Assembly (NCBI GenBank): GCA_024655825.1 | Contig: JANLFJ010000032.1 | Location: 1 to 40,341, forward strand | Source of the DNA: Peptococcaceae bacterium | Lineage (GTDB): Bacteria > Bacillota > Peptococcia > DRI-13 > PHAD01 | DNA length: 40,341 bases | Reading direction: 5' to 3' | In this document: one piece after another, positions 2,442-30,895 of the stretch | Layout of the letters: the number at the start of each line of letters is the position of its first letter | Position numbering within the stretch: the stretch's first letter is position 1 | Notes under the pieces: generated by a model | Told to the model about the DNA's origin: nothing | Seen by the model: only the letters and a program-made list of their open reading frames with translations | The model's database searches: none | Translations under genes and position numbers: made by a program

Positions 2442-2446
2442 AAGTA

Positions 2447-5820: not shown

Positions 5821-5860
5821 GGTTAGTCCATTTCTCAATATCATTGCCGTGGAGGTCTAA

Positions 5861-7258: not shown

Positions 7259-7270
7259 TATGGAATAAGC

Positions 7271-8410: not shown

Positions 8411-8516
8411 TTTCACATCACCTGTCTCAATTTTTTGAGGCCATACTCGGATGATAGATATATTATTTGATATCAAGCGCCGCAATCGAATACTGCTGCA
8501 ACAAAAAGAATATGGG

Positions 8517-8553
8517 GGGATGCAGTCCTCATGTGCATGGAAAGCTGCATCCC
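8517..8553 (-). terminator. Hairpin after TRAP set 1 dctP, likely terminator
   Basis: GGGATGCAG (8517-8525) and CTGCATCCC (8545-8553) form a perfect 9-bp stem. Read on the minus strand it is followed by CCCATATTCTTTTT, a weak T-rich tail. It would end or attenuate transcription between dctP and the alcohol dehydrogenase gene. Confidence 0.6.
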
Positions 8554-8643
8554 ATTAATACCGTAATAATTTCTGAGCTGTTTACAGCTTGTTAAATTTT
8601 ATTCAGGCATTGACCGTCCCTGACTTTCCTCTGATAGAGGCGT

Positions 8644-9699: not shown

Positions 9700-9748
9700 G
9701 CAAAGGACACCTCCTTAAATTTAGTTGCAATCGACTTTAGGAACCTGC

Positions 9749-9902
9749 CTGCCAACAAGGCAGCATCCGGCACTAGCCGCTAACCAGTGCAACTTATCCT
9801 TGCGGCAGTGCCGCAGACGGCCCGATTGCCTGCATAGGTTTTAGAAAACCGCCCTGTTCATTGGAAACCACCTCCCCTTCTGTTTTCTTGGCGGTTGCCG
9901 CC
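9749..9902. repeat. Three short hairpins in the dctM-dctP gap
   Basis: The 252-base gap holds no gene but three perfect short inverted repeats: CTGCC-AACAA-GGCAG (9749-9763), TGCGGCA-G-TGCCGCA (9801-9815) and GGCGG-TTG-CCGCC (9890-9902). None has a T-run. They may act as processing or stabilising hairpins that separate the level of the binding protein from that of the membrane subunits. Confidence 0.55.
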
Positions 9903-9951
9903 TGTCAGTCTCGCCGCCATCCGGTTAAGCCGGTCCCAGCATTCAACAAAA

Positions 9952-11271
9952 TCACATCCTGGAGGGAAGATATAGTGCAATCTCCGGAAATATTGTTATT
10001 ATTATCAAGGCGGTTATCAATACCAGCACATAAGGGAGAGTGCCTGTTATTATCTTGTTCATCGGCACATCCGTAACGGTTCTGATGACAAACAGATTCA
10101 AGCCCACCGGAGGGGTAATCATCCCGATCTCCACGCACAGGGTGGAAACAACCCCCAGCCAGATGGGATCAAAGCCAAGGGCAATGATGGTGGGATATAC
10201 GAAAGGTATGGTAAGAATGACCATGCTGCCGGGATCCATTAAGCACCCCAGCATAAACCACAAAATGTAGAGCATGGTCATGACCAGCCATTTGTTCAGG
10301 CCGGAAGCAACTATGATTTTGGCAATCGATTGGGCCAGCCCCAGATAGCTTATGACGTAGCTCAAGGACAGCCCGCAGATGACCAAAAAGAGAATCATGG
10401 TGCTGGTCCTGGCGGCGGCGGGCAGCGTGCTGATGAAAAGTTCCTTGGTCAACCTTCTCAAGTAAAGAACGAGCAGCATGGCCCCGATGGCGCCGAACCC
10501 CGCTGCTTCGGTCGGGGTGGCTATCCCGGAATACAGGGAGCCAATAACCACAAATATCAATACAAAGGAAGGGATGAGAAGCTTTAAGTCCTGGCCGATG
10601 CCGCCCGCTTGCTCCTGGACAAAGCTGGCCGTTTCCTCGTCAACCTGCCTGGATGAACCTTCTTGAAGCGCAGGATTCAATTTAACCCTGATTACAATGA
10701 ACAAGCAGAGAAGAAAGCTGATCAGCAGGCCGGGCAGGATACCGGCAATCAACAGTTTGGCGATGGAGTTCTCGGTGATTATTCCGTACGTGACAAAGGT
10801 GATGCTGGGGGGAATCATTATGCCCAGAGTCCCGCCGGCGACAACCGTGCCGACTGCAAAATCCTCCCTGTACCCCCGGTGGATCATTTGTTTGATCGAA
10901 ATTCGCCCTATCGCCGCAGCGGTGGCCGGGCTGGAACCGCACAGGGCGGCGAACACCGTGGAGGCCAGAGTGGCGCTCAGGGCCAATCCTCCCTTTACCC
11001 GCTGAAGGTATTTATTCAACACCATGAAAATGTCCGCCGCAACGTTACCCCTGGCCAGGAATTCGGCCATTAGAATGAACAGCGGCGCTACAAGCTGGTT
11101 CATGCTGGTGCCCTGGTTAAAAGCCATGGTGCCTATCTGCGCCAACTGGTTTGGAGATAAATAAAGCAACGTTGAAGCAACTGTCGTAAACCCCAGGGCA
11201 AATGCTACTGGAGTTCCAATAAAGATTGCCGTTAAAAGAATCGCCAGCAGGGTTATCAAAACAAGTATCAA
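9952..11271 (-). CDS. dctM: TRAP transporter large permease DctM (set 1)
   Basis: 439-residue polytopic membrane protein, the Na+- or H+-coupled channel subunit of a TRAP transporter. Family signatures are GTPVAFALGFTT at the N-terminus, LCGSSPATAAAIGRISI near residue 95, and the C-terminal MDPGSMVILTIPFVYPTI followed by CVEIGMITPPVGLN. The start is TTG 11271, with GGAGGT seven bases upstream; no nearer ATG fits. It lies 55 bases after dctQ. It is highly similar to DctM at 22507-23847 and less so to the copy at 37305-38642. Confidence 0.93.
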   Translation of the reverse strand: MILVLITLLAILLTAIFIGTPVAFALGFTTVASTLLYLSPNQLAQIGTMAFNQGTSMNQLVAPLFILMAEFLARGNVAADIFMVLNKYLQRVKGGLALSATLASTVFAALCGSSPATAAAIGRISIKQMIHRGYREDFAVGTVVAGGTLGIMIPPSITFVTYGIITENSIAKLLIAGILPGLLISFLLCLFIVIRVKLNPALQEGSSRQVDEETASFVQEQAGGIGQDLKLLIPSFVLIFVVIGSLYSGIATPTEAAGFGAIGAMLLVLYLRRLTKELFISTLPAAARTSTMILFLVICGLSLSYVISYLGLAQSIAKIIVASGLNKWLVMTMLYILWFMLGCLMDPGSMVILTIPFVYPTIIALGFDPIWLGVVSTLCVEIGMITPPVGLNLFVIRTVTDVPMNKIITGTLPYVLVLITALIIITIFPEIALYLPSRM

Positions 11272-11326
11272 TTAAATGACCTCCCCTTTGAACTTCAATG
11301 CGTTCTTTCGGGCCGCGTTCCTGGAA

Positions 11327-11833
11327 TCATAGATACTTTTGACCGCCGCTGATCAAATCTGAAATGATGCAGATCACAGTGACAAACATCATTACTGATC
11401 CCACGAGCATGGCCGCATACAACAAAACAATGGGAATCTGCACGTTTGCCAGGGTAAGCTTATTTAGTTCCAGGGCGTCCTTTATCATCAGAACGCTATC
11501 CCCTGCAAGCACGACAATATAAACCAAGGCCAGCAAATAACCGGTGACCGCCATGGCCTTCCTTGCCTTCACGTCCCAGACCTGGCCAATCCTCTCCCGG
11601 ATAAAGTCCACAGCCACATGTCCTTTTTCCTGAAAAGAATAAGATGTGCCCAGGAATATCGCCCAAATCAGCATGTACAAAGAAATGTCCATGCTCCAGG
11701 AAGTCGGGCTTGCAAAAACGCTGCGCACAATGCCTTCCATCACGGATAGTGCACCGATTATGAGTATTAACAGGCCGGATATTATCCCCATGATCAGATT
11801 GAAGCGCGACATAAAATGCGGGTATTTCAACAC
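11327..11833 (-). CDS. dctQ: TRAP transporter small permease DctQ (set 1)
   Basis: 168-residue four-span membrane protein, the small subunit that partners DctM. Typical features are the conserved W(A/V)IFLG-type segment seen as LIWAIFLGTSYSFQEKGHVA and the following VDFIRERI. GTG 11833 (or TTG 11830) is the start, with GGAGGTGAAAA just upstream. The gene begins 25 bases after the AOR stop, so AOR and transporter are one transcript, suggesting that the AOR acts on the imported compound or its product. Confidence 0.9.
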   Translation of the reverse strand: MLKYPHFMSRFNLIMGIISGLLILIIGALSVMEGIVRSVFASPTSWSMDISLYMLIWAIFLGTSYSFQEKGHVAVDFIRERIGQVWDVKARKAMAVTGYLLALVYIVVLAGDSVLMIKDALELNKLTLANVQIPIVLLYAAMLVGSVMMFVTVICIISDLISGGQKYL

Positions 11834-11858
11834 TTTTCACCTCCCTGTGACAAGCTTC

Positions 11859-13787
11859 CTAACGCTCCTTATTAACCTTATTACTCCTATTAAGATTAAG
11901 GTCGCTCACCAGCCCCGCCAGATTCAAAGTTTCAAGTTTCCGCGGCGAAGGCAGGCCCGTGGTTAAATCCCACTCCATTTCCTGGTAATAGGACCTTCTG
12001 GCGGTTTCCATATCGATGGTTACCCCGGCGGTTGGCCCGGCCTTCAACGGCGGTATTCCCTGCGCCCTGGGGGGAAGCCTGAAGCCTTGCGGTTCAAGAC
12101 CCTCCCTCAGATTGAAGCAGTGCCTTAAAGTGTTGATCCTCTCTCCCGCCACCAGGGCCTCTTCCAGGTCAAAATCCTTCCATCCGGTAACCGCCTGGAA
12201 GGCCTCCAACAGCGGGTAATGGTTATACCCGAATTTGGTGAACAGGCACATGCCGGCCGAGTTAAAGAACTGGAACCATTTATTGAGAATCGCCAGCGGC
12301 TTGCCTTTCGAGTTGTAATCGTATTTCTTGCTGCCCAAATCATCCAGGCCGAATTGTGCCAATTCCTTATCCGACCAGCCATGCTCGATGAACCCGACGC
12401 CGCCGGTGGTATGGCGTCCCGGAGTCGGATCCAGAACATAACCGTACCCGAAGCCCGGCCAGCAGCGCGGATCGTGCATTCCCAGCTCCTGCCCGCCCAC
12501 GTGAATGGCAAACTCTTCGGCAGCCTGCCCAATTTTTTCGGCTGCGGCCTTCACGCCGTCGGCCAGAAGCGCGCCAATGCCCTTCCGGTCGCGCATCATC
12601 TCGATCAACGGGATGACAGCGTCCTTGTTTCCCCACTCCAGCGAAAGGCCGTCCGTATCTTTTTCAGTTATCAGGCCTTTCTCATAACATTCCATGGCAA
12701 AGGCCACCGTCGCGCCGGCTGAAATCGTATCAAAACCGCAGCGATTGCATAATTCATTGACTTTGATGACCGTTTCCGGATCATCAACCAGGCACATGCT
12801 CCCGAACGCGGCCACGGTCTCGTATTCCGGCCGGTGCGTCAGATACGTCTTTCCATCGGCATCTTTCATTTCCAATATGGCGCCGCACACAATCGCGCAC
12901 TGGGCGCAGGCGTATTTTCTCTTCATGTACTGTAAATAAACATCTCCGCCCAAATTGCTCGCTTTTTCCAGCGGGTAAACTTCCTCCGCGATCCCTTTCC
13001 AGTTCTGGATGGGGGCATCCTGAATCGCGATGTTTTTCAGATATATCCCTACGGTGCCTAGTTTTCCGATGTTATTGGCCAGTCTTGTCCTGGTTTTAAT
13101 GTCTTCTCCCATGCGGGCCAGAACCTCCCGGTATGCGGACTCGTCCGCCACAGGGACCTGCCGGCTCCCTTTTACCGCAACAGCCTTGAGCAGTTTCGAT
13201 CCCATCACCGCACCCAACCCTGACCTTCCTGCCGCCCGGCCGTAATCGTGCATAATAGCAGCAATTTTCGACCGGTTTTCCCCCGCCTGGCCAATCAAAG
13301 CCACCGCGGCACCGGAGTCCACCTCTTGTTTAATCATGTCTTCGGCATCCGAACTGTCTTTGCCCCACAGATGACCGGCATCGCGTATTTCTACCGCCCC
13401 GTCGGTTATCCATAAATAAACGGGTTTTTTCGCCCGGCCGGTGATAAAGACCCCGTCATAACCGGTGCTTTTTAATACCGGGCCAAAATTGCCTCCGCAG
13501 CTGGAATCTCCCCAGCCGTTGGTAAGCGGCGATTTGGCCACCACATTAAACCTGCCGGCGCCGTGGCACCTGGTTCCGGTAAGGGTGCCGGCAACAAAGC
13601 CGAGAATGTTTTGGGGTCCAAGGGGATCAGCCCCGGCTTTCATTCTTTCATAAAGAACCCTTACGCCTAGCCCGTAACCGCCAATAAACTCCCGGTAAAT
13701 GTCCTCGGTTAATGCTCTTTCTTCATAGGCATTACTCGTGAGGTCCACAAACAGCACCTTGCCCATGTATCCTCCGGGCATCGACAT
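11859..13787 (-). CDS. Tungsten-type aldehyde ferredoxin oxidoreductase (copy 2)
   Basis: 642-residue AOR-family enzyme. Seen are the N-terminal GGYMGKVLFVDLTS, the pterin-binding GAGRFNVVAKSPLTNGWGDS, the cluster motif Cys294-X2-Cys297-X3-Cys301 (CAQCAIVC) and the later Cys in AGMCLFTKFG that should be the fourth ligand. It oxidises an aldehyde to a carboxylate with reduction of ferredoxin, or the reverse. ATG 13787 has GGAGG eight bases upstream. It sits between an iron alcohol dehydrogenase and TRAP set 1, an arrangement suggesting an alcohol-aldehyde-acid path for the transported substrate. It differs from copy 1 in insertions around residues 380-500. Confidence 0.92.
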   Translation of the reverse strand: MSMPGGYMGKVLFVDLTSNAYEERALTEDIYREFIGGYGLGVRVLYERMKAGADPLGPQNILGFVAGTLTGTRCHGAGRFNVVAKSPLTNGWGDSSCGGNFGPVLKSTGYDGVFITGRAKKPVYLWITDGAVEIRDAGHLWGKDSSDAEDMIKQEVDSGAAVALIGQAGENRSKIAAIMHDYGRAAGRSGLGAVMGSKLLKAVAVKGSRQVPVADESAYREVLARMGEDIKTRTRLANNIGKLGTVGIYLKNIAIQDAPIQNWKGIAEEVYPLEKASNLGGDVYLQYMKRKYACAQCAIVCGAILEMKDADGKTYLTHRPEYETVAAFGSMCLVDDPETVIKVNELCNRCGFDTISAGATVAFAMECYEKGLITEKDTDGLSLEWGNKDAVIPLIEMMRDRKGIGALLADGVKAAAEKIGQAAEEFAIHVGGQELGMHDPRCWPGFGYGYVLDPTPGRHTTGGVGFIEHGWSDKELAQFGLDDLGSKKYDYNSKGKPLAILNKWFQFFNSAGMCLFTKFGYNHYPLLEAFQAVTGWKDFDLEEALVAGERINTLRHCFNLREGLEPQGFRLPPRAQGIPPLKAGPTAGVTIDMETARRSYYQEMEWDLTTGLPSPRKLETLNLAGLVSDLNLNRSNKVNKER

Positions 13788-13811
13788 TATCAGCACCTCC
13801 CCAAATAATTG

Positions 13812-14963
13812 TCAACCAATTGCCAGACTGTACAGCCGTTTCATATCCTCGGGCGTGGTCTGGCGGGGAACAAACAAATAAATCCTTGTCCGTTGCGCGT
13901 CTTTCAGGAGTAGCGGGATGCAATCCTGCGTTACCCCCAGTTCAGAGAACCGTTCAGGCAAGCCGATATCCTTGTTCAGCTTCCTTATCTCTTCAACCAG
14001 CATCCCGGGTTCGAATCTATCTATATCAGGGGCATTCGGTTTAATCAGGCTGTATATCTTTTTATACTTACCTTTATCCGCCAGGGCATTGAATTCCAGT
14101 ACGAACGGGAAAAGCACGGCATTAGCCACCCCGTGCGGAATATTAAAATAGCCGGTTATCGGGTGAGAAAGGGCATGGGCTTGACACGGCAAAGCCAAAG
14201 AAAGGGCTATCCCGGCGAACGCGCTGCCCAGGATCATGTTTGATGCTGCCTCCAGATCAGCCCTGTTGGCAACAAACGCGCGAAGGTTCGGCCCAATCAA
14301 TTCCATGGCCTTTTCGGCCATACAGTAGGAAAACACCGACCCGGCCAGGGAAAGATATGATTCTACCGCATGGATCAAAGCGTCCATTCCCGCTGCTGCC
14401 GCCACGGAGGCAGGCAGCGTCGCCAGCAGCTGCGGGTCCAGGAGCGCACAGGCCGGCAGGATTTTATCGTTTAGAATAACCATCTTGTACTTTTCTTCAT
14501 CAGTAATAACAGCGTTGCGCGTAACTTCACTGCCGGTACCGGCCGTGGTGGGAACGGCAATAACCGGCGGTACCGGGTGGTCGACGGGAAGGTAATACCC
14601 GGCAAAGTCCTTGATTTTCTTTCCGCTTTTCCCCACAATGGCTATGCCCTTGGCGGTATCCATCGCGCTTCCCCCGCCAATGCCGACAATACCATCGAAG
14701 TTGTCATTCACGAATATTTGAATTCCTTTTTCCACCGTTTTATAGGACGGGTCCGGTTCAATATCGGTAAATGTGACATATTCAATGCCATGGCGCGTCA
14801 GCATGTCTTCAACCCTGTTGATCAGCCCTGTTTTGACCAGACCCGGATCGGAAGTAATAAGGACTTTTTTCATATTCCGGGAGATGATTTTTTCCGGCAG
14901 CTCCTCTAAACAGCCTGACCCGAACGTCACTTCTCCCTTTACGCTGAATGTCTGATATCCCAT
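13812..14963 (-). CDS. Iron-dependent alcohol dehydrogenase (copy 2)
   Basis: 383-residue group III alcohol dehydrogenase. Seen are GGGSAMDTAKG, PTTAGTGSEVTRNAV, the metal-binding MDALIHAVESYLSLAG and HPITGYFNIPHGVANAVLFP. The start is ATG 14963, seven bases from GAGGTG; a GTG two codons upstream is also in frame. It precedes AOR copy 2 by 24 bases and follows the IlvD/Edd dehydratase by about 100. With the AOR it could connect alcohol, aldehyde and acid using NAD and ferredoxin. It is a paralogue of the dehydrogenase at 7271-8410 in the same block. Confidence 0.92.
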   Translation of the reverse strand: MGYQTFSVKGEVTFGSGCLEELPEKIISRNMKKVLITSDPGLVKTGLINRVEDMLTRHGIEYVTFTDIEPDPSYKTVEKGIQIFVNDNFDGIVGIGGGSAMDTAKGIAIVGKSGKKIKDFAGYYLPVDHPVPPVIAVPTTAGTGSEVTRNAVITDEEKYKMVILNDKILPACALLDPQLLATLPASVAAAAGMDALIHAVESYLSLAGSVFSYCMAEKAMELIGPNLRAFVANRADLEAASNMILGSAFAGIALSLALPCQAHALSHPITGYFNIPHGVANAVLFPFVLEFNALADKGKYKKIYSLIKPNAPDIDRFEPGMLVEEIRKLNKDIGLPERFSELGVTQDCIPLLLKDAQRTRIYLFVPRQTTPEDMKRLYSLAIG

Positions 14964-15065
14964 TGTCACTCACCTCGCCAATATCCAATATAATTTCAGA
15001 ATAAATTGATTGAAAACTTCATGGAAACTTCACTATTGGTTCTGCTCGACAATTTTTCGCAGCCT

Positions 15066-16745
15066 TTATTCCACCAGCACGGCGCCGTCGGACAACGGCC
15101 GAACCACACGCCTGTATATCGAAAGCCATCCGCTGTCATCCTTGGTGGGCCAGGCGCCCATGCGGGCCCGGCGTGAGGCGAGTTCGTCTTCCGGTACCTC
15201 CAGATTGACCACGCGCTCCTTGACATCAATGGAAATCATGTCGCCGCGCTCCACCAGCGCGAGCGGTCCGCCTTCCGCCGCCTCAGGACTGATTTCACAA
15301 ACCAGCAGCGTTTTATTAACCAGTCCCGACACATGGCCGTCGGTCACCACCGCCACCTCCCCGGTCAGGCCGGCACCGTCCAGGGCAAAGATGACGCTGG
15401 AAAGCAGCCCCATACCAGGATTGCCCTTCACGCCGAACCCCCTGAGCACAAGCACCTCTCCGGCCTTGACATCGCCTCTCTTCAGTCCTGCAATTGCCTC
15501 CTCCCGCGATTCGTATATAACGGCCGGGCCGCGGAATTTGAGCGGTCTGTCATCAACAACCGCCAGCTTCACGATCCCGCAGACCGGGGCCAGCGAACCA
15601 CGGACCAGTACGATTGACGGCCGGGTGGAAAGCGCGCGGTCCACCGGGTATATTATTGTTTCGTCAATCACTTTCGCCTCACGCAAGATCTCGCCCACTG
15701 TCTGCCCGGTAATTGTCCTGGCCTCCTTGTGCAGGAAGCCTTCCAGTTGCTTCATCACCGCTCTTGTGCCACCCGCAGCCTCAAATTCTTCAATCGTGTG
15801 CTGGCCATTGGGCCGCACTGCAGTCAACAGCGGGATGCGGCTGGCATATTGCTCGAACAGGCCGTAAACGTCTACCTCGCACTTCGCTTCCCTGGCCACC
15901 GCCTGCAAATGCTTGATCGTGTTGATCGACCCGCTCACGGCCAGCATAACCATGACCGCATTGGCAAACGCTTCCGGCGTCAATATATCGCGGGGCTTTA
16001 CGTCTTCCCAGACCATCTGCACGATTCTTTCCCCCGCCAGGCGCACCGTCTTCCACATGTTTGAGCTGTTGGCCATCACCGGCGTGCTGCCCGGCAGGGC
16101 CATCCCCAGCGCCTCGGATACGCAGTGCATGGAATTGGCAGTCCCGAACCCCGGACATACGCCGGGCCCCTGGATGGCGGTTTCGGTCATTTCGGTCAGT
16201 TCCTCAAGCGTAATCTTGCCGGAGGCATAATGGCCGGCGTTGATGAAGACATCTTCAATGTCGCAGTGCTCTCCGCGGTACTTTCCGCTGGGTTGATAGC
16301 CGCAGGCGATGATCAGCGTGGGGATGTTGAGACGGGCTGCCGCCATCAGCTGGCCGGGCGCCGTTTTGTCGCAGGAGGCCAGGCATATCATCCCGTCAAG
16401 CTGGGCCCCTTCCACGGCAACCTCGATATCGTTGACAATCAAATCACGTGTCGATTGGATATAGCCGCCGGTGCGGCCCACGGCCGTGATAAAATCGCTC
16501 GGTGCGGCGGTGCGAATCTCAAACGCCAGCCCCCCGGCAGCCCGAATTTCCTCTTTGAGCCTCAGCGCTATCGCGTCAAGATGGGTAAAGCACAGGGCCA
16601 GGCTGGACGAAGAATTGACAATGGCAATTTTCGGTTTTTCCATGTCCTCATCCGTAAGCCCGATGGCCCGCCAATGAGCCCGCCGGCTCGCCCAGGCCAG
16701 AGTCCCCTTTTTAAAATTGCTGCGCAGTTCCGTTTTCGACTTCAT
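15066..16745 (-). CDS. IlvD/Edd-family dehydratase
   Basis: 559-residue [2Fe-2S] dehydratase of the IlvD/Edd family, which removes water from 2,3-dihydroxy acids or sugar acids to give 2-keto acids. The three expected cluster cysteines are visible: Cys52 (SLALCFTHLD), Cys125 (ASCDKTAPGQLMAAARLNIP) and Cys197 (GPGVCPGFGTANSMHC). The C-terminal swivel domain contains GMGLLSSVIFALDG and VVTDGHVSGL. It is of normal length. It stands alone among catabolic genes and not in a branched-chain amino acid operon, so a sugar-acid or other hydroxy-acid dehydratase is more likely than dihydroxy-acid dehydratase of valine synthesis. The start is ATG 16745, preceded by GGAGGAGAAACCG. Confidence 0.9.
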   Translation of the reverse strand: MKSKTELRSNFKKGTLAWASRRAHWRAIGLTDEDMEKPKIAIVNSSSSLALCFTHLDAIALRLKEEIRAAGGLAFEIRTAAPSDFITAVGRTGGYIQSTRDLIVNDIEVAVEGAQLDGMICLASCDKTAPGQLMAAARLNIPTLIIACGYQPSGKYRGEHCDIEDVFINAGHYASGKITLEELTEMTETAIQGPGVCPGFGTANSMHCVSEALGMALPGSTPVMANSSNMWKTVRLAGERIVQMVWEDVKPRDILTPEAFANAVMVMLAVSGSINTIKHLQAVAREAKCEVDVYGLFEQYASRIPLLTAVRPNGQHTIEEFEAAGGTRAVMKQLEGFLHKEARTITGQTVGEILREAKVIDETIIYPVDRALSTRPSIVLVRGSLAPVCGIVKLAVVDDRPLKFRGPAVIYESREEAIAGLKRGDVKAGEVLVLRGFGVKGNPGMGLLSSVIFALDGAGLTGEVAVVTDGHVSGLVNKTLLVCEISPEAAEGGPLALVERGDMISIDVKERVVNLEVPEDELASRRARMGAWPTKDDSGWLSIYRRVVRPLSDGAVLVE

Positions 16746-18410: not shown

Positions 18411-18638
18411 TTAATCCGGCATTGTAACAATCAGCCTTCTGTACTGGACACCCTTTTCCTGCAGCTCGGACGCAATTATTTTTTCCAAAACGGCCCTGGA
18501 GGTCAGACACTCTTTACAGGCATCAGGTCCGGCTTCGATTATTACCTCGATGTCGCCGTCGGCGGTTTGCCCGGCTTTAAGTACATATCCTTGCACAGCC
18601 AAGGAATCAGCAGTATCGCTCAAAGCTTCCTTCAGCAT
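18411..18638 (-). CDS. Small conserved-looking CxxC protein
   Basis: 75-residue soluble protein of unknown function. The only clear motif is ACKECL near residue 41, a CxxC that could bind a metal or cycle between thiol and disulfide; the rest is predicted to be mixed strand and helix. AAGGGACGG precedes ATG 18638. It starts 48 bases after the UGSC selenoprotein gene and ends the operon, so it is probably a partner of that protein, for instance a thiol carrier or assembly factor. I do not recognise a family. Confidence 0.65.
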   Translation of the reverse strand: MLKEALSDTADSLAVQGYVLKAGQTADGDIEVIIEAGPDACKECLTSRAVLEKIIASELQEKGVQYRRLIVTMPD

Positions 18639-18686: not shown

Positions 18687-20324
18687 CTATCTCCATTTAT
18701 CAATCGATTTGGTCACTCCGAGCATCGGAGAAGCCGCATCAAAGATCATGAAATATGGATTCGTTTGCCCGCCCACCACCACAATCGAAATGGCTTCCGG
18801 CCTGTTGTATTTTGGTATCATGACCTCGGGAGCGAGATACTGGTACCATCTAGGATACAGGTTGTGGCGAACATCCACCGTATAGATGAAGCTGTTTCTC
18901 CATTCTTCTATGCTCCGTTGCAGGCTCAACCACATGAATTCCTGCACGTCTTTTTTGCTCATCCCTTGTTCGGCAATCTGTTTGGCCAACAGGGGATCCA
19001 ACAGTATGACCAGGCCCCGCCAGGGATTAAAGCCGATGGCGCTGTCCATATTCCTGGCGGTCCAAACCATGTTGTCGAGACCGAGCCCTTTGCCGCTAAG
19101 GGGAGTGGAACGAAAGCCCCATGTCTTGAAGAGCGTAATCGTGCTTTCTTCCGGCTTATACCCTTTGTCCACATGGAACGGCTGCCACGGGCTCTCTGCT
19201 TCATTTTCGGAAAAGGAAAACCCGTACTTCAGAGGGTTGCCCTGGGAGGAGACATTGCGGTTGCTCGGATTGGACCCTCCCAAATTGATCAGGAACAACC
19301 TTATTGCCCGTCCGATTGTCGCATTGGCGCAATTGCCGGTCCCCAACGCATTTATCCCGCAATTCATGCCTATTTCCCCGGCGTAAGGGCCGTTGATGAA
19401 CCCCCAATAAGCGAAGGAATTTGTGCTGCCGGCATCCGACTCCGTGTCCAGGCTTGGTTCGGTCATCGCTTCGGCCGCCGCCAACAAAACCGGCATGTAT
19501 TCCGGCAGGCAACCCGCCATGACCCCGTTGATGGCCACTTTTTCCACCGTGACTTCCCACTTTTCGGGATCCATCCTACCAATGATCTCATCAGGAGAAT
19601 GGCTCGTTCCCTTGAGCATCTCTTTCACTCTATCCTCGGTAGGCGGAATAACCGGCAGACCATCGCTCATCGCCATGTCCACAAAACTTTTGTGCACCTG
19701 CCACAGTGTCCCTTCCATTACGACCCTCGGCCGGGGCGTCGCCTTGATAACACCGGTTTCCTGCTCTTCAGGGGTGAGCGGAGAGGTCAGCCCTCGTACA
19801 ATGTCCTCATAAGCCGCCTCGAGCTTGGCAGGGATCGTCTTCTCGTCGACGTCGGCGATGGGGTGAGGCAGGGCCACCATCCTCACGCGGGGCATCTTGT
19901 AAATCTCGGCGGCTGCTTTGGCGTCCCGCCTGAACGGCGTCGTGATTATTGCCACCGTCGGAATGCCGAGCCTTTCAATTCTAATCTGCATGTGGATACA
20001 CCACATGGTGCAGGTCCCTCAGTCACCGAGAGCCACTATTGCGGCGTCCGCCCTCTCTTCGATGGTTTTCCACCACTCCTCGCTTTCCGGTTTCATAAAG
20101 CTGGTGTTCTTGGGGTAATAAACCAGACGGGCCGACGGCACCCTTTTCTCCATCATTTCCATTGCTGTCTTTAACAGGACATCTGATCCCGGTTTCCCAA
20201 TATCGACAAAGAAGACCGTCTTGTCGTCGAGTGCCGCCAGCCGTTTGCTGGGAGGCAGGTACTCAATGTCGGGCGGATTGCCTCGAGGATCCAGGCATCG
20301 ATAAACGCAATCCCTATTCTCCAA
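18687..20324 (-). CDS. UGSC-type selenoprotein, 545 aa (in-frame UGA = Sec102)
   Basis: The reading frame is interrupted by one TGA at 20019-20021 and continues in the same frame to 18687. With selenocysteine the junction reads GD-U-GTCTMWCIHMQ, giving 545 residues with Sec102 and Cys105. The N-terminal ~170 residues match the UGSC family ((seleno)proteins with a U/C-G-S/T-C motif after a Rossmann-like strand, followed by ERLGIPTVAI). Residues ~203-545 form a second domain I cannot assign; it contains SDGLPVIPPTEDRV and AINGVMAGCLPEYMPVL (Cys272) and MNCGINALGTGNCANA. A hairpin directly after the UGA fits a bacterial SECIS. The TTG start at 20324 has AAGGAG nine bases upstream. It follows a QueG-like iron-sulfur gene by 34 bases. 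A thiol/selenol redox or reductive-cleavage role is likely; the substrate is unknown. Confidence 0.85.
19989..20007 (-). promoter_or_regulatory. Putative bacterial SECIS element of the UGSC gene
   Basis: Bases +15 to +33 counted from the T of the UGA form CATGTGG-TGTAT-CCACATG, a perfect 7-bp stem with a 5-base loop containing G. This is the position and shape that SelB recognises in bacterial selenoprotein mRNAs, supporting Sec insertion rather than a stop. Confidence 0.7.
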
Positions 20325-20358: not shown

Positions 20359-21252
20359 TCAGGATTGAGCATAAAACATTTCTTTGCTGGACTGCTTCCC
20401 TTTTACGCAGTGAACCAGGCATTCGTTGCAGTTCTGGTAGCCCATGTATTTGGTCGACAGCTGCATATAATAGTCGATGTCCGGGTACATTTGTCTATAT
20501 TTGGGCACAAGTTGCACCGCTTCCGCAATGCTGTTGCATTTCATCCAGTCTTCCGGCGGCTGCTGCCCGCCGCTCCCCTTGTACAACCCCCAGGAGGCTC
20601 CCCACACGCATCTCAACCGATTGAACCCTTCGCCGGTTTCGTTAATGGCATGCACCGGGCACCGCCGGGCAGCATTGCAGACGGCGCACCCCTCGCAGCC
20701 CTGTCGTCCGGTTTGAGGGCCGTCAATCTCGAGCGCCGCGCTGGTTATAACAGCTGCGAAAAAGACCCGGGGCCCATATTGGGGGGTAATAATCAGCATG
20801 TGGCGCCCAAATTCTCCCAAACCAGCTTGTTCGGCGGCTTTCCGCAGGGATATGGTGCCGACCCACCTCTTTTCGTCCCTGCCGTGCGAGGGGGAAACAG
20901 GCACGGCTATATAGCCTGTTTTTTCGATGAAATACGCCAGGTCGAACACCAGGTGCTGCAGATTAAAGAACATGGTCATGTACGACGCCACCGACACCCC
21001 GCCGTTAACGACCTCCAGCTCATCTATCGGCCCGTCAAAGGGAGGGTGCGGGATTTCCAACGCGCCGTAAGGCATGCGCCTGGCGACCACGACCACCGAG
21101 CGCGCCTGCGGCAAAATGCGGAACGGTGAAGGGTGACCGTCCGGCGACCCGTCCAGGGACGCCGGATCGGTGATCCCGACCAGGTCGGCGCCAAGTCTTA
21201 TCGCCGTATTTTTGACCTCGTTCGTCAGCGCTTTCTTCATCCCACTGGACAT
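20359..21252 (-). CDS. QueG-like iron-sulfur protein
   Basis: 297-residue soluble protein resembling the iron-sulfur half of epoxyqueuosine reductase and reductive-dehalogenase-type proteins. The N-terminal KNTAIRLGADLVGIT and QARSVVVVARRMPYGAL, and the central AGLGEFGRHMLIITPQYGPRVFF, are family landmarks. A cluster motif Cys186-X2-Cys189-X2-Cys192-X4-Cys197-Pro is followed by further cysteines at RLRCVWG and CNECLVHC, enough for a second cluster. It is shorter than QueG and lies in a TRAP/selenoprotein operon, so tRNA modification is unlikely; electron transfer to the UGSC selenoprotein is a better guess. ATG 21252 or TTG 21255 may start it (AAGGG upstream). Corrinoid binding cannot be judged from the sequence. 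Confidence 0.82.
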   Translation of the reverse strand: MSSGMKKALTNEVKNTAIRLGADLVGITDPASLDGSPDGHPSPFRILPQARSVVVVARRMPYGALEIPHPPFDGPIDELEVVNGGVSVASYMTMFFNLQHLVFDLAYFIEKTGYIAVPVSPSHGRDEKRWVGTISLRKAAEQAGLGEFGRHMLIITPQYGPRVFFAAVITSAALEIDGPQTGRQGCEGCAVCNAARRCPVHAINETGEGFNRLRCVWGASWGLYKGSGGQQPPEDWMKCNSIAEAVQLVPKYRQMYPDIDYYMQLSTKYMGYQNCNECLVHCVKGKQSSKEMFYAQS

Positions 21253-21312
21253 CAAATGTCACGCCCTTAATAATTTTATTTTTTCCTCCAGTTTTTTCCC
21301 GCAGCGTCAACA

Positions 21313-22359
21313 TCACTTCAGTTTATTAAACGCATCGATCAACTCGGCCCCTTCCGACCCGGCAATCTTCTTGACTTCTTCCATCAGGGGCGCCGCCTTG
21401 GAGTTGAACGCCGCATTCTCGGCATCGTTCAGGACATACGCGGTGCACTTGGCGTCGCTCAGCACCTTTTTGAACTTATCGCGTTCGTCGACAATGAGCT
21501 TCATGCTGTAGACCTTGAATTTCTCCATCGCCCGGTCGATGGCGTCCTGCTGGTCTTTGGTCAAGCTGTTCCATTTCTTTTGGTTCATCATCACGCCGAC
21601 AAAGGTCTCCTGCTGGTTATTAAAAGTGATATACGGCGCCGATTCATAAAGTTTGAAGGTGTTGGTCGCTATCCAAGTGGTATACGCCGCGTCCACCGTC
21701 CCCCGCTGAAGGGCTGTCGGCAGATCGCCAATCGGAACGGTGACCGGGGCTCCTCCCCACAATTTGACGGCCTCGCCCGCCCATTTGCCGGCTGTCCGTA
21801 TCTTCAATCCCTTGAAGTCCGCCGGCGTCTTCAGGACCTTCTTTTTAGAGACATACACCATCGTGTCTTGCCCGATCGGTCCGAGGTACTTAACCCCGTA
21901 TTTATCGAAAATCTTTTTCACAATGGGCGTGGTCAATTTGTCAAAATCCGTAAACTTGTTGCCAGGATAAGCCCCCGGTATTTCAAAAGGCGTCAACTCT
22001 TTCATCGTGGGTGTAAGGTTGGCCACCTGGAAGTGCGCAATATCCACGTTGCCGGCCTGTATCGCTTCGAGCGCGCCCGCATCCGACACCAGGCTGCCGG
22101 CAGGGCTAACTTTTACCTTAAGCTGCCCTTTGCTTTCTTCTTCAATGGTCCTCGCCAAATATTCATAACTGAGGCCGCTGATGCCGTTGGGCGGCTGGCT
22201 GTGACTGAGTTGCAAGGTAACGGGCTGGGGTTGAGCCGTGTTTCCCGCGGCTGGCGCTTTATCAGCGGCCGGTTTTTGCTGGCAGCCGGCCGCAAAAACA
22301 AGGGCCACCACCACCAAGAATACAAGTGCCTGGATGGCGTAATTTTTTTTCATTGCCAT
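21313..22359 (-). CDS. dctP: TRAP transporter solute-binding lipoprotein DctP (set 2)
   Basis: 348-residue DctP-family binding protein. The signal sequence with lipobox FAAGC makes it a lipoprotein; a Pro/Ala-rich linker follows. The ligand-binding stretch LKIRTAGKWAGEAVKLWGG and PVTVPIGDLPTALQR closely repeat those of sets 1 and 3, so the three proteins should bind similar anions. The start is ATG 22359 with GGAGG seven bases upstream; the frame is open 39 codons further, but that part is untranslated leader. It lies between dctM and the QueG-like gene and so couples uptake to the iron-sulfur/selenoprotein pair. Confidence 0.93.
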   Translation of the reverse strand: MAMKKNYAIQALVFLVVVALVFAAGCQQKPAADKAPAAGNTAQPQPVTLQLSHSQPPNGISGLSYEYLARTIEEESKGQLKVKVSPAGSLVSDAGALEAIQAGNVDIAHFQVANLTPTMKELTPFEIPGAYPGNKFTDFDKLTTPIVKKIFDKYGVKYLGPIGQDTMVYVSKKKVLKTPADFKGLKIRTAGKWAGEAVKLWGGAPVTVPIGDLPTALQRGTVDAAYTTWIATNTFKLYESAPYITFNNQQETFVGVMMNQKKWNSLTKDQQDAIDRAMEKFKVYSMKLIVDERDKFKKVLSDAKCTAYVLNDAENAAFNSKAAPLMEEVKKIAGSEGAELIDAFNKLK

Positions 22360-22506
22360 TCTTATTCCTCCCCAAATTTTAATTTTTTGAAAACTCAAGG
22401 ACCAGGGTTGGACGCTTCGCCAGAGGCTCCTGAAAAATACCCGTTCCAGTCTTAGATATGCCTGTCCCTCCACCACCTCTTTTCCTTTTTTTGTTCTCTA
22501 TTCGCC

Positions 22507-23847
22507 TTACATCTTCGAGGGCAAATAGGTTGCTATCTCCGGGAAAACCGTCAGAATGGCCAAGGCCAAAGTGAGCAGTATAACGAAAGGCAAGGCGCCG
22601 ACGATCACTTTTTGCATCGGTATGTCACATGACGACTTGATAATGAAGAGGTTAAAACCGACCGGCGGAGTGATCATGCCGATTTCCACGCACAAGGTGG
22701 AAACTACTCCCAGCCAAATGGGATCAAACCCCAGAGCTATGAGGGTGGGATAAATGAACGGTATGGTTAAAATGACCATGCTGCCCGGATCCATCAAGCA
22801 TCCCATAATGTACCACAAGCCGTACAACAAGACGATAACCACATATTTGTTGATTCCAATCCCCACAATCAAATCTGCGATGTCCTGGGCCAGGCCAAGG
22901 TAGCCGACGGCATAGCTCAGCGACATCCCAAAAATCACCAAAAACAGAATCATTGTGCTTGTGCGGGCTGTGGCTGTAAGCACATCCGTCAGAAGCGGTT
23001 TGGAGAATCTTCTTAACAGCAAAACGATCATCAAGGCTCCTATGCCGCCAATTCCGGCTGATTCCGTGGGGGTAGCCCAGCCTGTATACAAGGAACCCAA
23101 CACCAGAAGTATCAAAATTGCGGGAGGTATGATCAGTTTAAAATCCTGGTAAACAGTGGTGCGGCCGGAGATATCGTCGATTTTGGGGTTGGCCGCCTCC
23201 GCAGCCGCCTTCTGTTCTGCTGCTGCCAATCCTTGTTCGATCAGCTTGGGGTTCAATTTAACCCTGATCATTATGAAGATGCACAGCATGGCGCTTAACA
23301 TGAGACCAGGCAAAATCCCCGCGATCAGCAGCTTGGCAATGGAATTCTCGGTAATGATGCCATACATGACAAAGGGGATACTGGGAGGAATCATAATCCC
23401 CAACGTGCCGGCAGCAGCCACCACCCCTGCCGCGAACTCCTGCCTGTATCCCCGTGCGACCATCTGCGCGATGGATACCCGGCCGATGGCCGCCGCCGTG
23501 GCAGGGCTTGATCCGCAGAGGGCGGCGAAAATGCTGCACCCTAGCGTGGCACTAATGGCCAAGCCGCCTTTGATCTTGTGGAGATATTTGTTTAAGACCG
23601 TAAAGATATCTGCCGCAACGTTCCCCTTAGCCAGGAATTCGGCCATCAGAATAAACAGCGGCACCACCACCTGGTTAATGCTTATCCCTTGCTCATAAGC
23701 GATACGGCTTATTTGTGAGACCTGAGACGGATTCATGAAGAGTACGATGGAGGCGATGGTGGTGAAACCCAGAGCAAAGGCGACCGGTGTGCCAATAAGA
23801 ATTGAAATCAAAAGGATCGCTATTATGACGGCCAAAACCGTTAACAA
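22507..23847 (-). CDS. dctM: TRAP transporter large permease DctM (set 2)
   Basis: 446-residue polytopic membrane protein, the ion-coupled large subunit. Signatures are GTPVAFALGFTTIAS, LCGSSPATAAAIGRVSIAQM and the C-terminal MDPGSMVILTIPFIYPTLI with CVEIGMITPPVGFN. It starts with TTG at 23847, GGAGG seven bases upstream. It is very close to DctM of set 1, including the shared ITENSIAKLLIAGILPGL segment, so the two sets arose by duplication. A charged, Ala/Lys-rich cytoplasmic loop near residue 225 differs between the copies. Confidence 0.93.
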   Translation of the reverse strand: MLTVLAVIIAILLISILIGTPVAFALGFTTIASIVLFMNPSQVSQISRIAYEQGISINQVVVPLFILMAEFLAKGNVAADIFTVLNKYLHKIKGGLAISATLGCSIFAALCGSSPATAAAIGRVSIAQMVARGYRQEFAAGVVAAAGTLGIMIPPSIPFVMYGIITENSIAKLLIAGILPGLMLSAMLCIFIMIRVKLNPKLIEQGLAAAEQKAAAEAANPKIDDISGRTTVYQDFKLIIPPAILILLVLGSLYTGWATPTESAGIGGIGALMIVLLLRRFSKPLLTDVLTATARTSTMILFLVIFGMSLSYAVGYLGLAQDIADLIVGIGINKYVVIVLLYGLWYIMGCLMDPGSMVILTIPFIYPTLIALGFDPIWLGVVSTLCVEIGMITPPVGFNLFIIKSSCDIPMQKVIVGALPFVILLTLALAILTVFPEIATYLPSKM

Positions 23848-23901
23848 TGTTAGACCTCCCTCGCCATTTTTTAATTCCCGTGTCTCTTTATTCTGATAAT
23901 T

Positions 23902-24405
23902 TTATTGATACTTTTCTCCCCCGCCAAACAAATCAATGATGGCAAAACCAACCGTCAACAGCAGTATCGCCGACCCGACGACTATGGCTGAATATAAGAA
24001 TATGATGGGCACTTGCACATTGGCGATGGTTAGTCTCTTCAGTTCCACCGCCACTATGCTCATTTCAATACTAGTCCATAGCAGAACGGCGATCACCAAC
24101 AGGGAAAGCAAATGACCCACCAGCGACAGCGCCCACTTTGCCGCCCTGCTCCAGCGTCTCCCAATTGCGTCCCGGATAAAGTCCACCGCTACATGGCCCT
24201 TTTCTTGATAAGAATAAGATGTGCCCAAAAAAATGGCCCAAATCAAAACGTACCGGGAAACGTCCATGCTCCAGAATGTCGGGCTGGAGAAAACGCCCCG
24301 CATGATAACTTCCATTACGGACAGCAGTCCGATAATTAAAATCAGCGCCCCGGACAGGATTCCCATCGCCTTGTTAAAATGAGCCAATAAATCCGGATAC
24401 CTCAT
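23902..24405 (-). CDS. dctQ: TRAP transporter small permease DctQ (set 2)
   Basis: 167-residue four-span membrane protein with the DctQ landmarks LIWAIFLGTSYSYQEKGHVA and VDFIRDAIG. ATG 24405 has GGAGG seven bases upstream. It is the first gene of the operon that runs through dctM, dctP, the QueG-like protein, the UGSC selenoprotein and the small CxxC protein. The promoter at 24512-24541 leaves a leader of about 100 bases. Confidence 0.9.
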   Translation of the reverse strand: MRYPDLLAHFNKAMGILSGALILIIGLLSVMEVIMRGVFSSPTFWSMDVSRYVLIWAIFLGTSYSYQEKGHVAVDFIRDAIGRRWSRAAKWALSLVGHLLSLLVIAVLLWTSIEMSIVAVELKRLTIANVQVPIIFLYSAIVVGSAILLLTVGFAIIDLFGGGEKYQ

Positions 24406-24511
24406 CACATCACCTCCAAATGTATTAAGCCCCCCAATTTTCAACTTGCTGCCGTGAGGTGTTGCCGATCTTATCCATCATCTGTGGCCTTAATCGGAAT
24501 ATCTTAATCTT

Positions 24512-24858: not shown

Positions 24859-25317
24859 TTAGTACTTTTCTCTCGCCTCGCGCAGCACCCTGCAGATGCC
24901 TTCCTTGTCCAACGACAGCTCCATCAATCCCACATGCTCCTGGTAAACGTCCTGAGGGATTGCTTCTTTTATCTCATCTTCCAAAATGTGGTACACCGGC
25001 AAGCGCAGGGCTACCCCCGCCAGCGGCCCGGCATAAGTCGGGTCCCCGGCAATTACGGTTTCGGCATAAATGTCCGCGCTGTCAGGGTCTGGACAGCCCA
25101 GTATCACCATCAAATCCTCGTTTCCGTACTTCTCAGCCGCCTTCTTCAGTTCTTCCTGGACCAACTGGTCCATCGCGCCGGCAGCAGTTCAGACAAAGCA
25201 CTGGGTATCCATATAAACGACTTCGGCACCGGCCGCTTTAAGACACTCGGCTATGGCCAGCGCCTGGACGCCATCCCTTTCTCCCAACACAAACATCTTT
25301 TTCCCTTTCAGTTCCAT
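24859..25317 (-). CDS. grdA: Glycine reductase component A selenoprotein GrdA (Sec43)
   Basis: 152-residue selenoprotein A. Two frame segments join through a TGA at 25189-25191; read as Sec the junction is [12 protein letters not shown], the hallmark of GrdA. The N-terminal [25 protein letters not shown] and the C-terminal [30 protein letters not shown] agree with the family. GrdA takes the carboxymethyl group from component B as a Se-carboxymethyl selenoether and passes it to component C while a selenide-sulfide forms with Cys40 of the CFVU motif. ATG 25317 (GGACGGAG upstream) gives Sec43, close to the family position. It is the last gene of the operon, 46 bases after thioredoxin. Confidence 0.95.
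25157..25172 (-). promoter_or_regulatory. Putative bacterial SECIS element of grdA
   Basis: Bases +20 to +35 from the UGA form TGGACC-AGTT-GGTCCA, a perfect 6-bp stem with a 4-base loop containing G, within the window where bacterial SECIS hairpins occur. Confidence 0.7.
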
Positions 25318-25363
25318 GCTTCTCCGTCCTTTCCCTTTCATGTCTGGTACCTTTTCAAATGCC

Positions 25364-25681
25364 TCAGGCAATGTCGTCAATCAGGTTTCTGATATCCTGG
25401 ACAGTCAAATGCTGGCCAGCCAATCTCGCCACTTCTTGGCCATCTTTGAACACCAGGAAGGCGGGCAGCCCCATCACGCGATGTTCGATGCACAGCCTGC
25501 GGTTTTCAGCACTGTTTATTTTAACTATTTTAACCCTGTCCTTAAACGCCTCGGCCAGCCTTTCCACTTCCGGCATCAGCTTCAGGCAAGGCTGGCAAGA
25601 CGGGCCCCAAAAATCCACAATCACCGGTTGAGTCGCTTGAAGCACCTCCTCCTCAAAGTTTTCCTTGCTGACCTGAATCAT
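25364..25681 (-). CDS. trxA: Thioredoxin with CQPC active site
   Basis: 105-residue thioredoxin. The active site reads WGPSCQPC in place of the usual WCGPC, and the cis-Pro loop [13 protein letters not shown] is normal. In glycine reductase operons a dedicated thioredoxin re-reduces the oxidised selenide-sulfide of GrdA, and such thioredoxins are known to carry non-canonical active sites. It sits between grdC and grdA, as expected for that role. ATG 25681 has GGAGG seven bases upstream. No thioredoxin reductase gene is in the window, so reduction must come from elsewhere, or from the iron-sulfur proteins of the operon. Confidence 0.92.
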
Positions 25682-25702
25682 CCAAATCCCTCCTTGCTGA
25701 TT

Positions 25703-27145
25703 TCAGTTTCCGTTTTTTTCGATGATAAACGACATGCCGTCGGCAAGCTTGGTCATCTTGCCCAAAAACATGCTCCCTTTGCCCACGAACATGCTATTAT
25801 TTATTTCTCCGCTCATGATCATCTCCCTGGCGTGGCCCAGGAACGGGACCGCTGACGGGACATGGCCCTGGGTGGGGGCAAATCCGGGCATGCCGTATTT
25901 CCTTTCAAAGCCGTCAATTTCCGTTTTGTCCATCTCTCCCCGCAACACCGCCATGCCGGCAATGATCCGATAGTTGCCCCGGGGAACGTTCCCGTTGCCG
26001 TTCGGCTCAGTAATATCGGGGTTATGCAGTTCGACCGCGTATTTGTCTATGTCCAAAATACCCTTGCCGATCCGTTCCAGCGGTTTAACGATGAGCGACT
26101 GGTAAATCGCCTGGGCGGAGGAACCGGCGTGAATCTCATGCTTGCCGATGGCGTCCAAACGAATGAAGGGGCTTCGTCCATCATCGCTGCCCAGCACAAT
26201 GGCAAACGCTCCCATCTGGTCCTCAATCACCGGCATGTTGTGCTTGAGGTTTCCAGCAAATTTCATGCCCAGTTTGGCCACGGACCCGCCGCCGATCACG
26301 GCCACATTGTTGTGCACGCCGGCCTGGACAAGGCTGGCCGCTATAGTAACCGCATGGGCCGGCCCGCAGCAAAATGCCTTAACATCGCAGCCCGACGCGT
26401 TAAGGCACCCGGCATGTTCGGCGATCGCCTTGCCCATGTTGCCTCCGCCCCGCTGGTAGCGGTCCCCCACCGCCTCCTCGTCGCAGGCAATTGCATAGTC
26501 TATCTGGTCAGCCGTCACCTCAAAAGCGCGCAGGACATGTCTGAGCGCCACAATACCCGAGGCTTTGTTGCACAGGTTTTCCAATAATATCTGCGGCGTA
26601 AGAAACCGGTCTTCCTCGTGCCCTTGCTCCACGCAGCCGATCAGCCGCTCCTTGTCGACGTACAGCGGCTGTGCAACGCCGTCGGCAATCTTTTTTTCAA
26701 TATCCGGCAATCGCACCCCGCATCCCAGGCATTTCAAGTCTTCTTCACCAATCAGCGGATGAGCGGCTAGTCTTCTTTTAACCTCCTCCTGTAGAAACCG
26801 TTCCTCCAGGTGTACAAGGTTGAAAACATCAGCAATTTTCAACCAGCCATAAAATTCCGTTTCAGGCAAGATCTCCCCCCAGCGGCTGAACCGCCTGGCG
26901 CCAGGCACCTTTTTGTCTGACCACGACCGTTCATACTCGTACAATTTGTCCGGTCTTAGGTTGCCGATAAAGACCTGGTTCGGCGGATAAGCGACCGCGT
27001 CTTCAAAACTGCGCAGGCTGGAAAGAATGCTGAAAAGAACCTGGGGATTTTTTGCTATCTCCCTCTCCGGCTTGGACCCGTAACGCACCAAGCTGGGAAC
27101 ATGGGCAATGACATAAGCAGCCCCTTTTATCACCGGATATTTCAT
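25703..27145 (-). CDS. grdC: Glycine reductase component C beta subunit GrdC
   Basis: 480-residue GrdC, related to 3-oxoacyl-ACP synthase III-like (thiolase-fold) proteins. Seen are the N-terminal YPVIKGAAYVIAHVPSLVRYG, the DEEAVGDRYQRGGGNMGKAIAEHAGC stretch near residue 230 and CCGPAHAVTIAASL, all typical of the family. In the classic complex GrdC with GrdD turns the Se-carboxymethyl group into acetyl-enzyme and acetyl phosphate. Here no grdD follows: the next gene is thioredoxin. ATG 27145 (GGAGG upstream) is preferred over the longer frame at 27184. A normal GrdC without GrdD suggests an acyl product that is released differently, or a GrdD encoded outside the window. Confidence 0.9.
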   Translation of the reverse strand: MKYPVIKGAAYVIAHVPSLVRYGSKPEREIAKNPQVLFSILSSLRSFEDAVAYPPNQVFIGNLRPDKLYEYERSWSDKKVPGARRFSRWGEILPETEFYGWLKIADVFNLVHLEERFLQEEVKRRLAAHPLIGEEDLKCLGCGVRLPDIEKKIADGVAQPLYVDKERLIGCVEQGHEEDRFLTPQILLENLCNKASGIVALRHVLRAFEVTADQIDYAIACDEEAVGDRYQRGGGNMGKAIAEHAGCLNASGCDVKAFCCGPAHAVTIAASLVQAGVHNNVAVIGGGSVAKLGMKFAGNLKHNMPVIEDQMGAFAIVLGSDDGRSPFIRLDAIGKHEIHAGSSAQAIYQSLIVKPLERIGKGILDIDKYAVELHNPDITEPNGNGNVPRGNYRIIAGMAVLRGEMDKTEIDGFERKYGMPGFAPTQGHVPSAVPFLGHAREMIMSGEINNSMFVGKGSMFLGKMTKLADGMSFIIEKNGN

Positions 27146-27200
27146 TCGCCTACCTCCCAAAAATCGCCATAACGCATATTCCATAGTAACCTAAATTTTG

Positions 27201-28508
27201 CTATTCAATGACCGTTGGTGCGGTTATCTGGGTTTGGACTGCGGATAAGGCGCTTCTCACAATTCTTTTCCGCAGTTCGTATTCCTCCGGCGGGGACAAA
27301 TCGGGATCCCCGGTGGGATAGAGCACGCTGCGCGACGGCACCAAGCGGTTCGACCCCATTTCTTTGGCGACGTTGATCATTGTGCAAACATGAGCAGTGG
27401 GAATGCCTGCCCGTTCCAACTCCCTGACCATCACTGCACCGCAGCGAGTACTGGTCCCTCAGGTCGATGTCAGAATGGCCGCCAGTACTCCTGTTTCTTT
27501 CAGTTCCCTGGCGATTTCCCGGCCGAAGGAGGCGGCATTTTCCATAGCGGTTGCCGCTCCGGCAGTAGAATAAATAACGGGATGCAAGATGATTTCACCG
27601 GTTTCCTCCAATTCGCGCAATGCATCCAAAGGCACCAGCCGGTTGGGATCAGCGGCGACATACCGGTTGTCGTAGCCGAAGTGATTCACTTCCACCTCTT
27701 GCGGCGTCAATTTTTTCCAAGAATCTATTTTAATCCTGTACCAGCGCTCGCAGCGCCCCGAGGGCATCCTTTCCGGGTTCCCTTTTATTGTCAGGCCGCC
27801 GTCCGTGATCAAGGCCAGCTTAAACCCCTTTTCCCGGGCAGGCGGGGCCGGATTTACCTTCTCGTTTTTCGGAATGGGCAGCTCGCTTTGCCACTTCTCG
27901 CCGCGGTGCTTGGCCAGAAGCATGCGAATGGCCCTTTCCGCCGCATTCAGTTCCATCACCACGTTTTGTTTCAATCCGCGCTTGAAAAGCATCTCCCGTT
28001 CGCTTACCGACAGTCCTATTCCTTCCAGCAGTTTGACAAGAATGGCGCCCATTAGTGGGAGGCTGTTTTTCATATCCGCTCCCGTGGTGCCGGTGCGAAA
28101 TATCGGTATATGCTTGCGGAATCTTTCCACCGCCGGGTGTTCCGGGGCCAAGCCTGTTATAACCGGAATGCCCAGTCTTTCCTGTACGGCCCGGCTGACA
28201 GAGGCGCAAGCTTCGCCGTACCTGCCAGCCAGAAAAGCAGGCCCGGCTACAAAGCCGTCGGGATGGAGGCTCTCGATCAAGGACATCACTTCTTCCAAAG
28301 CGTGCTGGTCCTCCACAAACCGGTTGTCGCCGCACACCACTGTCCCGACGATCTTTAAGGCTCCATTTGAGGTCTGCTCCAGCAGCCGGCCAGGCCCGAC
28401 GCTGCCTTCCACCTTATACGGCGCGACACCCGCGAAAGCTTCCCCTCCCTTCCCGGCATAAAACTGGTTCAAATAATGGACGATCCTGTAAGGTCTCTGC
28501 CCTGCCAT
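27201..28508 (-). CDS. GrdB-like selenoprotein, reductase component B (Sec350)
   Basis: 435-residue relative of the Sec subunit of glycine/sarcosine/betaine reductase component B (GrdB/GrdF/GrdH). The TGA at 27459-27461 is in frame; read through, it gives ILTST-U-GTSTRCGAVMVREL, followed by ERAGIPTAHVCTMINVAKEMGSN, as in GrdB. The N-terminal YRIVHYLNQFYAGKGGE and CGDNRF also match. Sec350 should attack the substrate carbon to release the leaving group. Where GrdB usually has U-G-T-C-T this protein has U-G-T-Ser-T, so the nearby cysteine is lost, while Cys356 stays. The start ATG 28508 has AAGGAG upstream. Substrate specificity cannot be inferred, and the partner GrdE-like protein is also altered. 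Confidence 0.9.
27431..27447 (-). promoter_or_regulatory. Putative bacterial SECIS element of the grdB-like gene
   Basis: Bases +15 to +31 from the UGA form TCGCTGC-GGT-GCAGTGA, a 7-bp stem with one G-U pair and a loop of GGU, at the expected SECIS position. Confidence 0.7.
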
Positions 28509-28580
28509 AATCACATCTCCTTCTAAAACCGTCTTAACCGTCTTAACGCTTTCCGAACAAAGGATCGGTTGCCTGCCGCT

Positions 28581-30875: not shown

Positions 30876-30895
30876 TTGATCATCACTTCCTAACG

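Follow-up and report, generated by a model that had tools for sequence, protein, structure and literature searches.

The window, by which we mean the whole 40,341-nucleotide stretch of DNA that was analysed, contained a gene for a UGSC selenoprotein. The features to which the text refers were the following:

2001–3715, minus strand: aconitase X (AcnX), large and swivel parts, also found repeatedly near UGSC genes at other loci
18687–20324, minus strand: UGSC selenoprotein gene, 545 aa, TTG start, single in-frame UGA
18690–19739, minus strand: C-terminal domain of the UGSC protein, residues 196–545, with no Pfam or NCBIfam family and no significant PDB fold match
19785–20297, minus strand: UGSC domain (PF24696), residues 10–180, homologous on profile comparison to the GrdB/PrdB Sec domain
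19989–20007, minus strand: SECIS-type stem-loop at +15 to +33, 7 bp stem CAUGUGG/CCACAUG, loop UGUAU
20019–20021, minus strand: UGA codon 102, predicted Sec102, in the UGTC motif with Cys105 (context GD-U-GTC)
20359–21255, minus strand: QueG/reductive-dehalogenase-like Fe-S protein, 298 aa, 34 bp upstream of the UGSC gene, a linkage that is rare elsewhere
21313–24444, minus strand: TRAP transporter DctP, DctM and DctQ, upstream of the UGSC gene
24859–25317, minus strand: GrdA selenoprotein, UGA at 25191–25189, Sec58
25364–25681, minus strand: thioredoxin TrxA of the Grd cluster, candidate electron donor
27201–28514, minus strand: GrdB selenoprotein, UGA at 27461–27459, Sec352, homologue of the UGSC Sec site

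The Grd genes belonged to a second Sec system, a single minus-strand cluster (24859–32179) comprising GrdA, GrdB, GrdC, TrxA and a GrdE-like protein; between GrdB and GrdE lay an Fe-S protein of 831 aa, tandem and QueG/RDH-like. The segment from 2001 to 16745 held, besides aconitase X and its swivel part, two aldehyde:ferredoxin oxidoreductases, two iron alcohol dehydrogenases, an IlvD/Edd-type dehydratase and a TRAP set, and resembles a catabolic cluster for acids or sugar acids. A glycyl radical enzyme and its activase (33202–36715) adjoined a third TRAP transporter; the enzyme scored under every NCBIfam equivalog cut-off, the nearest models being choline lyase and the hydroxyproline and sulfopropanediol dehydratases. 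A small minus-strand ORF of 75 aa with a CKEC motif (18411–18638) was found directly after the UGSC gene.

The TTG start of the UGSC gene was preceded by AAGGAG. An earlier note, made from the sequence of the window, had given the right coordinates for the gene and left its strand unstated. It had also read the in-frame TGA (GD-U-GTC) as a Sec codon, and the comparison with homologues bears this out: the UGA was kept in most of them and replaced by Cys in others, and the alignment with non-Sec relatives that the note had proposed did show Cys at position 102. The U102-G-T-C105 motif has the Sec/Cys-x-x-Cys form and was conserved in 72/74 and 70/74 of the homologues. Three signs by which bacterial selenoproteins are recognised were present, namely a UGA aligned with Cys, a downstream element of the bSECIS type, and selB together with tRNA-Sec, the two adjoining each other in the host genome. 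Every test applied agreed, and the UGA at codon 102 is, as far as sequence can tell, a Sec codon.

The 7-bp hairpin with a G in its loop, already reported at +15 to +33, agreed in all respects with the bSECIS model, in which an apical loop of 3–9 nt with a G in its first two positions sits on a stem of at least 4 bp at a spacing of 16–37 nt (PMC13188914). When the 29-nt element was shuffled, 4 of 200 shuffles folded equally well. Across 80 TGA homologues, 66.8% of the cells were paired in the register of the stem, compared with 31–53% when the 3′ strand was slid, and six or seven of the stem pairs were retained in 37 of these 80. The stem covaried, with compensatory exchanges from C-G to G-C at positions 15/33 and from A-U to U-A at positions 16/32. 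Part of the stem conservation may come from the coding sequence. The 40 nt following the UGA were more stable than most of the gene to which they belonged (median percentile 0.08 for 67 homologues, whose genes are related and not independent). At Rfam gathering thresholds there was no match in the window; bacterial SECIS elements are very variable. The retention of the UGA in most homologues, its replacement by Cys, the stem held in register and the stable fold together place this UGA beyond chance.

Relatives were detected in 22 of the 398 genomes of the phylum, mostly at full length and with exactly one in-frame TGA or none. At least 583 stretches of the GTDB contigs encoded relatives, and the two-module UGSC protein was present in hundreds of genomes; the best 80 of these 583 or more came from Bacillota, Chloroflexota, Acidobacteriota, Pseudomonadota, Myxococcota, Thermodesulfobacteriota, haloarchaea and others. 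In the aligned relatives, which were drawn from genome searches, plasmids and GTDB contigs, codon 102 was TGA in most cases, else Cys, and occasionally Met, Ser, Gly or Ala. The tree of 94 rows (80 with Sec encoded by UGA, 10 with Cys and 4 with another residue) needed at least 11 switches, and the nearest relatives on it were a Bacillota MAG with Sec (53% identity) and Emergencia with Cys (47%). Cys forms were carried by plasmids of Variovorax, Neorhizobium and haloarchaea. On the conjugative IncP plasmid of Acidovorax sp. T1, a UGSC homologue with an in-frame TGA was annotated only as a short truncated CDS. In one subclade, Met replaced Sec/Cys (GDMGTS), so that the UGSC family includes members without the redox residue; one of these members lay beside aconitase X and an FAD oxidoreductase. 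The N-termini of several Sec-containing relatives resembled signal peptides, often of the lipoprotein type, which suggests that the family may include exported selenoproteins.

The N-terminal third of the protein had been called UGSC-like, and it matched PF24696 over residues 10–180 at 132.4 bits, far above the gathering score of 25 bits. With NF041046 the score was 120.7 bits, about 4 bits short of the equivalog cut-off of 125 bits, and all 21 aligned relatives matched this model at E ≤ 0.5. The NCBIfam models of GrdB and PrdB also matched the UGSC protein (E 9e-5) and 8–9 of the 21 relatives (best 9e-6), with scores of 16–21 bits that covered the Sec region only and stayed below the cut-off (65 bits for TIGR01918). 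When the UGSC and GrdB alignments were compared with hhalign, the probability was 97% (E 9.5e-11) and Sec102 fell on Sec352 of GrdB. The UGSC protein and the GrdB of the window itself shared 29% identity across 76 columns. From these alignments we conclude that the UGSC domain and the selenocysteine domain of GrdB and PrdB are homologous, Sec on Sec. This kinship questions a simple thioredoxin-like view of the domain. A sequence search retrieved no solved GrdB structure, and when PDB folds were searched with the whole model, the best 50 matches included no thioredoxin, only weak matches to Rossmann-like parts.

The C-terminal domain, which the earlier note could not place, had no Pfam or NCBIfam family either in this protein or in 20 relatives. 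AlphaFold2 modelled the whole UGSC protein confidently (pLDDT 93, pTM 0.93) and the C-terminal domain alone nearly as well (pLDDT 91.6, pTM 0.93). Against PDB folds the domain alone gave nothing at E ≤ 0.001, with TM-scores of about 0.2; the matches to fumarase and cyanuric acid hydrolase were in this range (E > 0.001) and are not taken as real. Neither the domain nor the full profile matched a PDB sequence. A GrdE-like identity was ruled out, the two being unrelated in profile comparison. Among 74 homologues the most conserved positions of the domain were polar or glycine/proline (Asp221, Gly222, Pro228, Thr229, Gly271, Gly312, Asn334, Gly338, Arg339, Glu373, Glu375, Trp380 and Gly388), and Asp221, Asn334, Arg339, Glu373 and Glu375 were invariant or nearly so. 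Cys272 (VMAGCLPEY), singled out earlier as conserved-looking, was Cys in 57 of the 74 homologues and Ala in the other 17; it is therefore not a strict catalytic residue, and its candidacy as such is weakened.

The two modules were fused in most genomes. Haloarchaea had them split into adjacent genes, and so did Variovorax SRS16, Roseovarius and Arthrobacter, where the order was reversed. The existence of fused, split and reversed arrangements implies that the two modules probably work together. In two haloarchaea a C-domain gene lay on either side of a single UGSC gene, which suggests that complexes form with two distinct paralogues of this domain.

The neighbourhoods of the UGSC genes varied widely. 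The TRAP and QueG-like linkage seen in the window, on which the earlier note had based its functional reading, is rejected as a conserved system, DctM and the QueG-like protein each being found in 2 of 93 related loci. At other loci TctC, Opp/Dpp or TAXI-TRAP stood in for TRAP, and TctC receptors occurred near UGSC genes in 24 loci. The other recurrent neighbours were class III CoA transferases, SDRs, Opp/Dpp transporters, MmgE/PrpD, luciferase-like oxidoreductases and DUF6282. Aconitase X was present in four loci beyond the window (Sporomusa, Vibrio, a proteobacterium that also had a TRAP transporter, and a Chloroflexi MAG). Of 94 loci, 11 had thioredoxin-reductase-like genes, usually at 1–3 kb and in nine cases no further away than about 3 kb; in Arthrobacter the gene row was trxB-trxA-Cdomain-UGSC. 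In the 80 unselected GTDB loci there were 5 such genes for 0.54 expected, an enrichment of about tenfold (P about 2e-4), the background of 0.43 per Mb corresponding to about 36 matches at E ≤ 1e-20 in 83.6 Mb from 18 host genomes. The plasmid loci were hand-picked and support the trxB enrichment qualitatively only.

We know of no biochemically characterised UGSC member. As the best reading we propose, with confidence that is about evenly balanced, that the UGSC protein is a selenol reductase that is recycled by thioredoxin and acts on an imported organic acid. In this model it would be a two-module selenoenzyme, in which the N-terminal UGSC module is a selenocysteine domain of the GrdB/PrdB type with the Sec102-x-x-Cys105 pair between a beta strand and a helix, and the C-terminal module (Asp221, Asn334, Arg339, Glu373 and Glu375) would hold the substrate. 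The selenolate of Sec102 would attack or reduce an imported small organic, probably carboxylic, compound, Cys105 would close a selenenylsulfide, thioredoxin would reset it, and thioredoxin reductase would recycle the thioredoxin. We infer the reductase activity, thioredoxin as the donor here, substrate binding by the C-terminal domain and the class of substrate. The thioredoxin step has a precedent in glycine reductase, which uses thioredoxin dithiol, and D-proline reductase, the other homologue, was reported to work without it (PMC10298544). That report counts against a thioredoxin-coupled reductase, as does the window itself, which has trxA 6 kb from the UGSC gene but no trxB. The lipoprotein-like relatives also look to sit away from cytoplasmic thioredoxin, which counts against the coupling, and members with Met, Ser or Ala at position 102 are predicted to have lost this chemistry. 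The importers TctC, TRAP and Opp, with CoA transferases, lyases and AcnX nearby, speak for an imported acid; the neighbourhoods vary so much that no single substrate can be named. The Sec-dependent reductase of an imported compound suggested by the earlier note thus stays plausible, its TRAP/QueG-like basis falling away and the kinship with GrdB and the linkage with trxB giving better support.

The UxxC motif, the trxB neighbours and the presence of UGSC genes in some aerobes would also suit a general thiol/selenol redox-repair enzyme or peroxide scavenger without a specific catabolic substrate, and a Trx-like fold was suggested in 2008 (PMC2398784). We consider this unlikely, as the neighbours are importers and acid-catabolism enzymes and not stress genes, the Sec domain matches GrdB and not thioredoxin, and a defined ligand is implied by the second domain, which is large and conserved and has invariant polar residues. 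It is more doubtful still that the protein acts as an alternative substrate-specific "protein B" of the window's Grd system, its Sec passing a selenoether to GrdA and GrdC leading to acetyl phosphate and ATP. The homology with the Sec domain of GrdB would fit such a role, as would the sharing of the window with GrdA, GrdB (the only GrdB of the genome), GrdC, the GrdE-like protein and TrxA; however, none of the other 93 UGSC loci contained Grd genes, the C-terminal domain is unrelated to GrdE by profile, and B-type subunits are already part of the Grd set itself.

If the UGA were a genuine stop or had arisen in assembly, the two ORFs would be separate genes or a pseudogene, an arrangement reminiscent of the haloarchaea and some bacteria that encode the modules as two genes. 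In these two-gene forms, however, the break lies between the modules and not at codon 102. The same codon is UGA in dozens of independent genomes and Cys in others, and a covarying SECIS, selB and tRNA-Sec are present, so this explanation has a negligible probability.

Beyond the thioredoxin-recycled reductase proposed for the window, we tentatively suggest that UGSC with its C-terminal domain might represent a large class of selenol/thiol reductases that depend on thioredoxin and have been overlooked, sharing their Sec domain by descent with glycine and proline reductases, using a new substrate-binding fold, and serving imported-organic-acid catabolism in bacteria and haloarchaea, aerobes included. 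The ties with GrdB/PrdB and with thioredoxin reductase, and the Cys versions in cultivable Neorhizobium and Arthrobacter, make the function testable; what is gained above all is a concrete role for UGSC proteins that can be put to the test.

The UGSC selenoprotein belongs to a known, uncharacterised family and is a known type of fusion. The earlier note had suggested a "possible undescribed system"; as a protein it is not undescribed, such a fusion having been published in 2008. Zhang and Gladyshev described a fusion of UGSC with a conserved domain labelled only Unknown_1, and UGSC among the most abundant selenoproteins of marine and freshwater metagenomes (PMC2398784). Unknown_1 is likely the C-terminal domain described here, the likeness being the same architecture as described in words. 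The literature searched gave no function for UGSC, and a 2026 review still listed these proteins as functionally uncharacterised. Absent from the same literature were the homology with GrdB/PrdB, the split and reversed modules, the trxB enrichment, the recurrence of AcnX and a C-domain fold without PDB match.

With the PF24696/NF041046 family the protein shares residues 10–180, the U/C-x-x-C motif and the use of Sec or Cys at the same site; here the motif is UGTC and, as in many members, there is an extra C-terminal domain. With GrdB and PrdB it shares a homologous Sec domain, in which the UGTC motif is followed by a helix and Sec falls on Sec. Unlike them, it lacks the first approximately 330 residues of GrdB, carries an unrelated C-terminal domain, and in most loci needs no GrdE/PrdA partner. 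The fluoroacetate reductase FarB/FarE differs in that FarB is a full GrdB paralogue with FarE, which the UGSC protein is not; the likeness lies in the proposal that a Sec site of the GrdB type acts on an imported acid, by C–F cleavage in that case (PMC10838667).
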